In this document: piece by piece, positions 50,349-52,912 of the stretch
How the letters are laid out: each line of letters opens with the position of its first letter
Numbering within the stretch: position 1 is the stretch's first letter
DNA from: Pseudarthrobacter sp. NS4
GTDB lineage: Bacteria; Actinomycetota; Actinomycetes; Actinomycetales; Micrococcaceae
Assembly (NCBI RefSeq): GCF_024758005.1
Contig: NZ_CP103288.1
Location: 1,550,001-1,614,000, forward strand
Reading direction: 5' to 3'
Length of the DNA: 64,000 nt
Translations under genes and position numbers: made by a program
The notes under the pieces: generated by a model
Database searches by the model: none
The model's input: only the letters and a program-made list of their open reading frames with translations
What the model was told of the DNA's origin: nothing

Positions 50349-50822
50349 GGTCCGACAGTGCCAGCTGGAGATCCCCAGCTGGTATTCCGGCCTGGCGGCT
50401 TCCTATCGGACTTTTCCACCACAGTATGCCCGGACAGGGCGAGCATGAGGTAGAACTCCGCGAAGGGATCCTGGGGCAATTCGCTTTCCGGCACCCCTGG
50501 ATCTTCGGGGAATTCCAGCTCAGGCGCCTCCAGCCCGGCCAAGTCCTCGTCAGCAACGTATCCGCCAGGTAAGACTCTCCCAGGCATGCCCAAGCCGGGT
50601 GAAGAGTGTTCCTGAAGACGCGCCACTTCCGCACGATGCGAGACGTGCTCCAGCAGCCGTTGGGGAAGGTGCAGGTCCAGGCTTCGGCTGATCCGGTACA
50701 AAACCTGAGGGCCAGTGTGGTGGTTCCCGTCCTGGTGTTTGCTGGTGTAGTGCCGGCCGGTGGGGGAGGTCCAGCCGGGTGGTTCGTTTTTGGTGGCGGG
50801 GGTGGGTGTCCAGGTGCTGGTG
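50345..50822 (-). pseudogene. Distal (C-terminal) fragment of a DUF222/HNH endonuclease gene
   Basis: On the minus strand the frame entering from the IS element reads TSTWTPTPATKNEPPGWTSP, the segment that normally follows the HNH motif in actinobacterial DUF222-HNH proteins, and ends near LPQDPFAEFY. In the middle (around 50710) a base appears to be missing relative to the usual HQDWEPPHWP, so the frame shifts and later returns. It is separated from the rest of the gene by the IS110 element and is not functional. Confidence 0.65.
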
Positions 50823-50835
50823 ACCCTTCTATAGT

Positions 50836-50841
50836 TGTCAA
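50836..50841 (-). promoter_or_regulatory. Outward-facing -35 box (TTGACA) at the IS 3' end
   Basis: A perfect TTGACA overlaps the transposase stop codon and points out of the element. In a circular form it would face the start of the element's 5' end and could drive the bridge RNA and transposase; only a weak GAGGAT lies at 19 bp across the junction. Confidence 0.45.
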
Positions 50842-51908
50842 CCGCTGCAGGGGCTTGGGTTTGCGGCATTGAGGGTCCGGTAGATTCGTCGGGCGAGATA
50901 GCGTTTCACGCACCGGCGAATTTCCCTTGGGGTCCGTCCGCTGGCTTGTCGTTTCTCGACGTATTCGACGGTCCGGGCGTCGAATGTCATCCTGCTGCGA
51001 GCGACCATGTGCAGGGCTTTGTTCAGGGTTCTGTCGCCGCCGCGGTTGAGACGGTGCCGGACGGTGTTGCCGGAGGAGGCCGGGATCGGGTTGACCCCGG
51101 CGAGGGAGGCGAAGGCGGCCTCGGAACGGACCCGGCCGTGGTGGGACCAGGCGGTGAGGCATATGGCGGCGGTGACAGGACCGAATCCGGTTTCCTGGAG
51201 CAGTGGTGCGGCTTCGCTGATTCCGACCAGTTCGGTGATCTGGGCGTTGTTGGTTTTGATGTCCGTGTCGAGCTGGCTGATGTGTTTGGCGAGCCGGACT
51301 GCTTCGGAGCGGGCCACGGACAGGGCCAGCGGTTCTTCACGGGCACGCCAGCGGGAGACCTCGGCGATCTGGGTTCCGGTCAGTTTTTTGCGGGCGTCAA
51401 GACCGAGCTCGTTCACCCGTGCCAGCGCGGTCAGCGCGTTTACGGCCCGGGTGCGGTCGGTGGTCATGGATTCACGTGCGCAGACCAGGATCCGCAGGGC
51501 TGCGCGGACCCCTTCGTTGAGCCGGGGCCGGCGCAGCTGCTGCTCTTCCATGGGCAGGACGGCGGCGGCGATCCGGTGCGCGTCCAAGGTATCGGACTTG
51601 CCGACCCCGTGATGGGCCCGGGCATCCATTCGCGGCGCTTCGGCGACATGATAGCCAGCTGCGCCGGCAGCACCGGCCAGCAGCGCCCCGTAGGAGGCGG
51701 CGCCCTCGATCACCCACAGGGTGGCCAAGTCAGCGCCGGTAAGCCGCGCGACCCAGGCGATGGCCCGGTTGATGCCGGCGCTCGTGGTGGGGAATTCCCG
51801 GGTCTGAAGCAGTTCACCGGTTGCGGTGGCGATGATGGCGTAGACATGGTTTTTGGCGTGAGTGTCGATGCCGACGACAAATGGGCGGGAATGAGCAACG
51901 ATAGACAT
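50838..51908 (-). CDS. IS110 family transposase (DEDD recombinase)
   Basis: A 356-residue recombinase. The N-terminal RuvC-like DEDD domain has VGIDTHAKNH, IEGAASYG and KSDTLDAHRIA. The C-terminal Tnp20 domain has LAGVNPIPASSGNT, which contains the family's catalytic serine, and LNRGGDRTLNKALHMVA. All key residues appear present and the frame is intact, so the element may be active. ATG 51908 gives the usual start just before the first aspartate; the frame is open further upstream. Confidence 0.9.
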   Translation of the reverse strand: MSIVAHSRPFVVGIDTHAKNHVYAIIATATGELLQTREFPTTSAGINRAIAWVARLTGADLATLWVIEGAASYGALLAGAAGAAGYHVAEAPRMDARAHHGVGKSDTLDAHRIAAAVLPMEEQQLRRPRLNEGVRAALRILVCARESMTTDRTRAVNALTALARVNELGLDARKKLTGTQIAEVSRWRAREEPLALSVARSEAVRLAKHISQLDTDIKTNNAQITELVGISEAAPLLQETGFGPVTAAICLTAWSHHGRVRSEAAFASLAGVNPIPASSGNTVRHRLNRGGDRTLNKALHMVARSRMTFDARTVEYVEKRQASGRTPREIRRCVKRYLARRIYRTLNAANPSPCSG

Positions 51909-51989
51909 AGCGGTTCTGGCACTTTCCTCTATTTCGCGGATATGGTCAGGGCCGCGCACGGCCGGTACCAGTCCGGGTAGAGGTCACTT

Positions 51990-52195
51990 CGGAACAGCAC
52001 TGTGACGAGCCACGCCCCCAGTCATTTGAGGGGCGGGCAACCTTCTGATCAAGTTACCGAGGTGGGCCGGGCAGGTACCGGCCGCCCCACCCCACGGACG
52101 GACAAGTCACCAGCAGAGCACCCACGGGGGCCATGTGTTTGATGAGTCACGACTACAGGGCAGAACGACCAGTACCTACTCTGCCAGCCAGTCCC
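51990..52195 (-). ncRNA. Putative bridge RNA of the IS110 element
   Basis: Read on the minus strand. A 5' stem (GGCAGA/TCTGCC, 52159-52185) comes first. A target loop follows: left guide TCAAACAC (52135-52142 region) equals the left flank of the insertion, and right guide TGCTGGTG (52108-52115) is the complement of the right flank CACCAGCA. A stem (52061-52091) is next. Then a donor loop: AGAAGG (52041-52046) equals the element's 3' end, a perfect CGCCCC/GGGGCG hairpin (52013-52035) intervenes, and TCACAGTG (51998-52005) is the complement of the element's 5' start with CA. The order left guide, hairpin, right guide in both loops matches the bridge RNAs known from IS621. Confidence 0.7.
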
Positions 52196-52220
52196 AGACC
52201 AGCCACCACAATCCTCACAG

Positions 52221-52562
52221 TGTTTGAGTCTGTGGTGTTTGGGGCAGGCCTGGCCGAGGTTGCTGACCCCGGTGGTTTCGCCGTGGTGCCAGGCGAGGAG
52301 GTGGTTGGTTTCGTTGTCGAGGGTGTGGTTGGTGCAGCCGGGGAAGGTGCATTTTCCGTCCCGCATCCGCAGCCAGCGCTTCACCGCTTCCGGGAGCCGG
52401 TAGTTCTTGCGGCCGATCTCCAGCGGCGCCCCGTCTCTCGGGTCGACCAGGACCCGGTAGAAGGAGTTGGTTCCGTCCGTGACCAGTTTCCGGGCCCAGC
52501 GCGGCCAGCTGCGCTTCCAGCTCCATTGCCGATGCACCACCGTTGCCGATTCCCATACTCAC
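52221..52562 (-). pseudogene. Proximal fragment of the interrupted DUF222/HNH endonuclease gene
   Basis: On the minus strand this piece reads LVTDGTNSFYRVLVDPRDG, then the HNH zinc motif KCTFPGCTNHTLDNETNHLLAWHHGE and ACPKHHRLKH, stopping at the IS junction. Just upstream, ELEAQLAALGPE is in another frame, so a frameshift separates it. The whole DUF222 N-terminal domain (about 250 residues) is missing. The gene had therefore already lost its 5' part; the IS and the distal fragment complete the wreck. Confidence 0.7.
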
Positions 52563-52645
52563 AGCATCCCAGCACCCACCGAGATTTGAGTGCGAGGGGC
52601 GATGAGCCCAGGTGGTTCAGGTGGAAGCCCGGACTGCTGGTTGCA

Positions 52646-52912
52646 TTACCCGCCGGCGAACGGGGGCAGCACGTCCACCACGTCATCCGGGCCGAGGACA
52701 GCCGACTGGTCCCGGACCGCAACCTCGTTGAGCAGGAAGCTGCTCCTGGACAGGATGCGGGGCAGCGGGGGAGTACCGGCAGGAGGTTCGGGGCGTTCCA
52801 CGGACAGCACGGCCTCCAGGAGCTCCGCCACGGTGGCGCCTTCCGGCAGGTCGAACTTTTCCTCGTCGAGGCCTGCAGCAGCGCGTGCGGCAGCGAAGTA
52901 ACGTACGTTCAT
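52646..52912 (-). CDS. moaD: Molybdopterin synthase sulfur-carrier subunit (MoaD/ThiS family)
   Basis: An 88-residue ubiquitin-like protein ending in the GG needed for thiocarboxylation (LPPFAGG). It supplies sulfur to MoaE (encoded at 58078) in molybdopterin formation. It lies 5 bp after moaA on the same strand, so they form an operon divergent from the rest of the molybdenum-cofactor genes. Confidence 0.9.
   Translation of the reverse strand: MNVRYFAAARAAAGLDEEKFDLPEGATVAELLEAVLSVERPEPPAGTPPLPRILSRSSFLLNEVAVRDQSAVLGPDDVVDVLPPFAGG

Follow-up and report, generated by a model that had tools for sequence, protein, structure and literature searches.

The IS110-group element and the gene that it interrupts

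The window analysed here is a stretch of 64,000 nt from the genome of Pseudarthrobacter sp. NS4, and it contains on its minus strand an insertion sequence whose parts are listed in Table 1. The length given there includes one copy of a C that is shared by both junctions; the other copy is position 52220. The ends of the element were set by its relatives, with which the full-length alignment stops at exactly these ends, and uninterrupted paralogues of the interrupted gene agree with this placement. The recombinase gene is preceded by about 260 nt of non-coding DNA and followed by 16 nt. Its product combines PF01548, a RuvC-like DEDD domain, with PF02371 according to Pfam, and the G--P----SG motif described for the IS110 group (PMC11187229) reads GVNPIPASSG in the translation. 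Weak alignments were obtained with the solved IS621 enzyme (E 3.1e-8) and with the ISCro4 enzyme (PDB 9t56, E 1.5e-6). Judged by its sequence, the element is a member of the IS110 family (IS110 group). A search against Rfam gave two matches, both far below their gathering scores.

Table 1. Features of the element and its flanks (positions in the window)
Feature	Position	Strand	Remarks and evidence
IS110-group element	50822..52219	-	1398 bp including one copy of the shared C
Recombinase gene	50838..51959	-	373 aa, intact frame, start codon provisional; PF01548 and PF02371
Left flank: 5' part of DUF222/HNH-type gene fragment	52220..52496	-	Paralogue homology
Right flank: 3' part of DUF222/HNH-type gene fragment	50710..50821	-	Paralogue homology
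Predicted bridge RNA region: 5' stem-loop, target loop, donor loop	51965..52194	-	Consensus fold, covariation
Left target guide TCAAACACA	52134..52142	-	Matches left flank 9/9; covariation
Right target guide TGCTGGTG	52108..52115	-	Pairs with right flank 8/8; covariation
ACT behind right target guide, putative guide in the handshake with donor bases 8-6	52105..52107	-	Pairing counts
Left donor guide AGAAGG	52041..52046	-	Equals AGAAGG in element end AGAAGGGTC; covariation
Right donor guide TCACAG	52000..52005	-	Complement of CTGTGA
TG behind right donor guide, putative guide in the handshake with target bases 8-7	51998..51999	-	Weak covariation
TTGACA, -35-like motif if ends are joined in a circle	50836..50841	-	Near right end
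GAGGAT	52211..52216	-	Near left end, 17 nt from TTGACA across joined ends

Both flanks belong to one gene, as homology to its paralogues spans the insertion from position 52496 down to 50710 with 1–2 gap positions. Since this homology stops near these two positions and holds gaps, the interrupted gene was already a fragment. The HNH label of the gene is a motif-based reading; the fragment in the window had no match in Pfam, and an intact 606-aa paralogue matches DUF222.

An orthologous empty site beside the moaD-like gene was sought by comparing positions 52221–52900 with 204 genomes, where among the matches listed only the element's own genome matched the whole stretch, the other matches covering either the gene-fragment part or the moaD-like part. 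We therefore used paralogous empty sites instead. The pattern CTCAAACACNCCAGCA occurs in the window's genome at six sites with at most one mismatch (three exact, three with one), all of which coincide with the places of the flank paralogues; five further sites have two mismatches, and a backward control pattern has five sites at up to two. The uninterrupted paralogue G000:C1:4135155 reads CTCAAACACACCAGCA, which is exactly the left flank joined to the right flank with the C counted once, while two others read CTCAAACACGCCAGCA and three more are one base off the pattern. The initial annotation had predicted CACACC at the junction in the intact gene and a preserved target, and this paralogue bears out both. 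Its further expectation that the insertion had broken an HNH frame holds in part: the joined flanks are open across the junction (...HHRLKHTSTW...), but the gene so restored is only a fragment with gaps.

Guides in the left end and the predicted RNA

The non-coding left end holds four short guides, all of which had been put forward in the initial annotation and are present in the sequence. The first loop fits both flanks of the insertion, where the right junction reads CACCAGCA and the right target guide TGCTGGTG is its reverse complement, and the second loop fits the element's own ends, which is the proposed target-loop/donor-loop logic of the IS621 type. The TG at 51999-51998 is complementary to the target CA that precedes the shared C. 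Two details had to be corrected, as the gap between the target guides measures 19 nt rather than 18 and AGAAGG is not the last part of the element, where it is followed by GTC. The target addressed by the predicted RNA is conserved within a multicopy gene family, of which a decayed copy was hit.

For the fold we used 28 left ends, namely 27 of 54 representatives and the left end of locus L030. The RNAalifold consensus consists of a 5' stem-loop, a stem-loop with the target guides in an internal loop and a long stem-loop with the donor guides in an internal loop, and 96.2% of its cells are paired. Changes on both sides of a pair are found in 21 of the 59 pairs, compared with 7.3 in shuffles that do not remove relatedness and at most 8 when slid. 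The covariation check that had been suggested for the fold hence yields two guide-bearing loops on covarying stems. Folded alone, the window sequence has a different best structure (z -2.1), and 3 of 200 shuffles were as good.

The window's genome contains one full-length copy of the element and thus no sign of recent movement, and the host gene fragment shows decay on either side of it. Both observations would suit a bridge-RNA element by descent of which this copy is now inactive, so that its target match would be the record of the last insertion. They are countered by the recombinase, whose frame and two domains are intact, and by the guides, which still fit both the target and the element's own ends; we consider inactivity of the copy conceivable but not likely.

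A single base is common to both junctions

Relatives of the element were searched in 199, 206 and 395 genomes (overlapping sets, two candidates scored per genome), and 23 loci from one species-genome scan as well as 60 fetched regions were added. Among the resulting 153 loci with a recombinase match, the left end was found in 130, the right end in 101 and both in 87. Left junctions were parsed at first with a C required before TGTGAG, and a repeat without this requirement gave five cases with T, which lie outside the 130 rows used for the guide counts. One base is common to both junctions. Among the 114 unique left junctions it is C in 109 and T in the remaining 5 (L095, L144, L089, L156 and L123), where the T could form a wobble pair with the G in the right target guide. 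With the shared C placed at position 9 of the IS621 numbering, the unique right ends have C at position 9 in 87/87 and T at position 8 in 85.

The target neighbours of the shared C vary. At the right junction the base after it is A in 15, G in 13, C in 7 and T in 4 of the 39 distinct right guides, and in 37 of these the guide carries the complementary base; at the left junction the base in this place is a T that belongs to the element itself. A CA core, which the initial annotation had considered, was rejected on these grounds, the neighbours of the C being free in the target. The CA before the element, part of the dinucleotide said to stand at both junctions, is indeed present, but it represents target positions 7-8, opposite the nucleotides that follow the right donor guide, so that the two CAs are different things. 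A CT core in the target was discarded as well, with C followed by T in just 4 of the 39 guides.

In IS621 the core is CT at positions 8-9 with the cut after 9, and the nucleotides adjoining a right guide form a handshake with positions 6-7 of the opposite DNA molecule (PMC11208158). In the relatives analysed here, the right target guide is followed by A, which faces donor T8, in 124/124 parsed rows (6 unparsed; A was not required). Pairing between the nucleotides behind this guide and donor bases 8 and 7 was seen in 84 of the 86 loci, two of them by wobble; at donor base 7 the pairing with the target-loop base is Watson-Crick in 82/86 rows and wobble in 2, the target-loop triplets ACT, ATC and AAT going with GT, AT and TT, respectively, at donor positions 7-8. 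For 40 unique sets, agreement at donor position 7 is 0.90 versus 0.59 in shuffles, with 0/2000 as high. Donor position 6 is not significant (352/2000 shuffles as high), and position 8 is invariant. The nucleotides that follow the right donor guide pair with target position 8 in 46% versus 35% in shuffles (9/2000 as high) and with position 7 in 41% versus 28% (27/2000), and their pairing falls below the shuffles at position 6; with wobble allowed, 52 and 183 of 2000 shuffles are as high at positions 8 and 7. These values give a weak indication that the nucleotides behind the right donor guide may pair with the target.

We lean slightly towards a one-base core, C at position 9, in this actinobacterial branch, with position 10 freely guide-encoded and position 8 now part of the handshake, to which it appears to have moved from the core. 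Among the papers listed in a search of open-licence literature, none was found to describe such a one-base core in this branch. The same system might instead retain the two-base core of IS621 (donor CT, target CN) and acquire its one-base look by mismatch repair after exchange; joining the ends does give CT in the donor, repair of mismatched bases is suggested by the IS621 authors (PMC11208158), and in the window and some relatives the left guide extends beyond the C by one base. A cut after CN should, however, sometimes leave the target N at the left junction, where TGTGAG of the element (TGTAAG in two loci) comes directly after the C; the target N is T in just 4/39. The right guide ends on the C, and the A that follows it in 124/124 parsed rows fits donor T8 but target base 8 in only 8 of 55. 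Retention of a two-base core is in our opinion improbable.

Target guides covary with insertion sites and donor guides with element ends

The left target guides were compared with their flanks using one locus per distinct guide, which gave 55 guides (4 of the 130 rows were unanchored). Guide and flank agree on average in 7.31 of 9 positions (best of three registers), against a shuffled mean of 3.86/9 and a maximum of 4.51 in 2000 shuffles, in which relatedness is not fully removed. The target loop thus covaries with the insertion site, as the initial annotation had anticipated. At least 7 of 9 positions agree for 43 of the 55 guides and fewer than 7 for the other 12. The 43 good guides end on the C in 31 cases, at +1 in 7, among them the window's own guide, and at -1 in 5, and when guide and flank were compared without an assumed register, the strongest cells lay on one diagonal. 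Counted as unique guide-flank pairs, 74/93 reach 7 of 9 and 19/93 stay below. An unchanged loop at unrelated sites, which had been named as evidence against guidance, is confined to a minority: 20 guides occur with more than one flank, and 47 of their 58 unique guide-flank pairs still match in at least 7/9 positions. Clear misses are L133 (3; it adjoins another IS end), L079 (4) and L091 (5), while the miss in L043 (3) has the same letters shifted by two.

Copies that share one guide sit at one motif within otherwise different flanks. The guide AAAGAAACTA is found at AAGAAACTAT, AAGAAACT and AAGAAAC in L043, L075 and L104, each directly before the C, with GGA following in all three. As one guide here occurs in three registers that each end on C and then GGA, the right guide seems to set the insertion register. 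For the right guides themselves (39 distinct guides from 86 rows), agreement at the five bases beyond the C is 0.95, 0.92, 0.79, 0.67 and 0.69, compared with 0.24-0.30 in shuffles, and drops to 0.10 at the sixth base (0.24 shuffled), so that the right guide consists of the C plus five bases.

That the guide matches arose by chance, or that guide and target were co-inherited without function, can practically be dismissed: short matches are possible by chance in a single element and related elements share guide and target through descent, but the guides are distinct and their position is fixed, 0/2000 shuffles come near the observed value, and same-guide copies sit at one motif amid otherwise different flanks.

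The donor guides follow the element ends. In the left donor guide, AGAAG is followed by the same base as in the element end in 50/52 unique elements (A, G and C types), and the right donor guide is complementary in 124/130 rows, with 3 rows unparsed and 3 mismatched; one compensated change, in two rows, was observed for the latter.

Arthrobacter sp. NtRootA1 harbours six copies at GTAAGTGAC followed by CCCGC[G/A]TTG. A search of this genome with the joined one-C motif alone, allowing one mismatch and no indels, found 41 sites, 11 of them exact, and none with the control. This target motif is a palindrome-edge motif (e.g. at L168 and L169).

Several further loci deserve mention. Two additional IS110 copies in the window's genome (L002 and L004) are 64–65% identical to the element, have the common left guide GAAAAAACAA and both sit at AAAAAACAAC. 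Right ends of the subgroup with this guide, to which both belong, were not found with the end motif, and the right-side comparisons cover loci outside this subgroup. A sub-branch formed by L118, L119, L120 and L141 lies between TTGACAGAC and ATAGAAG, which also applies to the right flanks of L055 and L089; together, these two sequences look like the right end of a further element from this IS branch. The left guide of the sub-branch fits this target only in 6/9 positions, and L120 has a second recombinase fragment on its left side. Relatives that share the right guide of L103 have GATAACCGG at the beginning of the right flank, and L103 itself has TGTGACCGG there, which looks as though part of the element's own start had taken the place of the target. 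Locus L064 is in the same genome, and a second element lies about 1 kb away.

A promoter-like motif across the joined ends

If the two ends are joined, TTGAC[A/G] and GAGNNT stand 17–18 nt apart in 52/52 unique pairs, a count in which the end-parsing pattern already required GAC or GAA within the first motif. The -10-like half of this putative promoter is weak. Within the integrated region no promoter motif was found (0.3 in shuffles). The motif resembles the circle promoter of IS110, which forms across the joined ends (PMC11208160).

Proposed mechanism

Taking the sequence evidence together, we assign a probability of roughly 0.93 to the reading that this IS110-group insertion sequence moves by bridge-RNA-guided recombination of the IS621 type. 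It builds on the boundaries, the empty sites, the covariation of guides and ends and of RNA stems, the shared C and the junction motif observed here. By analogy with IS621, the element would leave as a circle, whose joined ends would, under a one-base core, read AGAAGGGTC-TGTGAGGAT with a single C and would form a promoter from which the left end is transcribed into an RNA. This transcript would be bound by the DEDD/serine recombinase. Its target loop would pair with the bottom strand on the left side of the crossover and with the top strand on the right side, and the donor loop would pair likewise with the circle junction. Following the chemistry and cut position of IS621, the top strands would be cut just after the single shared C and then exchanged, whereupon the nucleotides behind each right guide would pair, as the handshake, with the bases left of the C in the other molecule.

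Comparison with known systems and significance

The element has the same recombinase domains as IS621 of E. coli and shares with it a non-coding left end with 5' stem-loop, target loop and donor loop, in an RNA that is predicted here (PMC11208160, PMC11208158). In both, the left guides match the top strand and the right guides pair with it, and both have a joined-end promoter, here as a motif, and handshake pairing behind the right guides, here putative. Some members of the branch, like IS621, insert at repetitive palindromic elements. In contrast, the IS621 core is CT, with a nearly invariant T and a cut after it, whereas the branch studied here has one common C with free neighbours, and position 8 is core in IS621 but apparently a handshake position in this branch. 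The recombinases of the two are distantly similar.

The name of ISAar29 probably points to an Arthrobacter host. The IS621 authors drew six further elements, among them ISAar29, which, compared by its figure legend alone, is like the present element an IS110-group member with a predicted bridge RNA (PMC11208160); among the matches listed, the open-licence literature held no further information on it. The seekRNA system of ISEc21 likewise involves an upstream non-coding region, a linear target within a conserved coding stretch, insertion without target duplication and a natural redirection in a relative (ISMch6), but the target of ISEc21 lies in IS3-family transposase genes, and the core is not treated there in such terms (PMC11187229). 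ISCro4, compared by its recombinase match alone, has an IS110-type recombinase as well.

The bridge-RNA mechanism is already known from E. coli, and it is the crossover rule that seems to differ here. If true, the enzymes of this branch would accept nearly any target with one C, which would broaden target choice relative to CT, and the right guide rather than the left would set the register. The relatives form a natural set of dozens of guide, target and end combinations in a branch distantly similar to IS621, on which guide rules are testable without engineering, and the covariation of target loop and donor end provides evidence from natural sequences for the handshake step.
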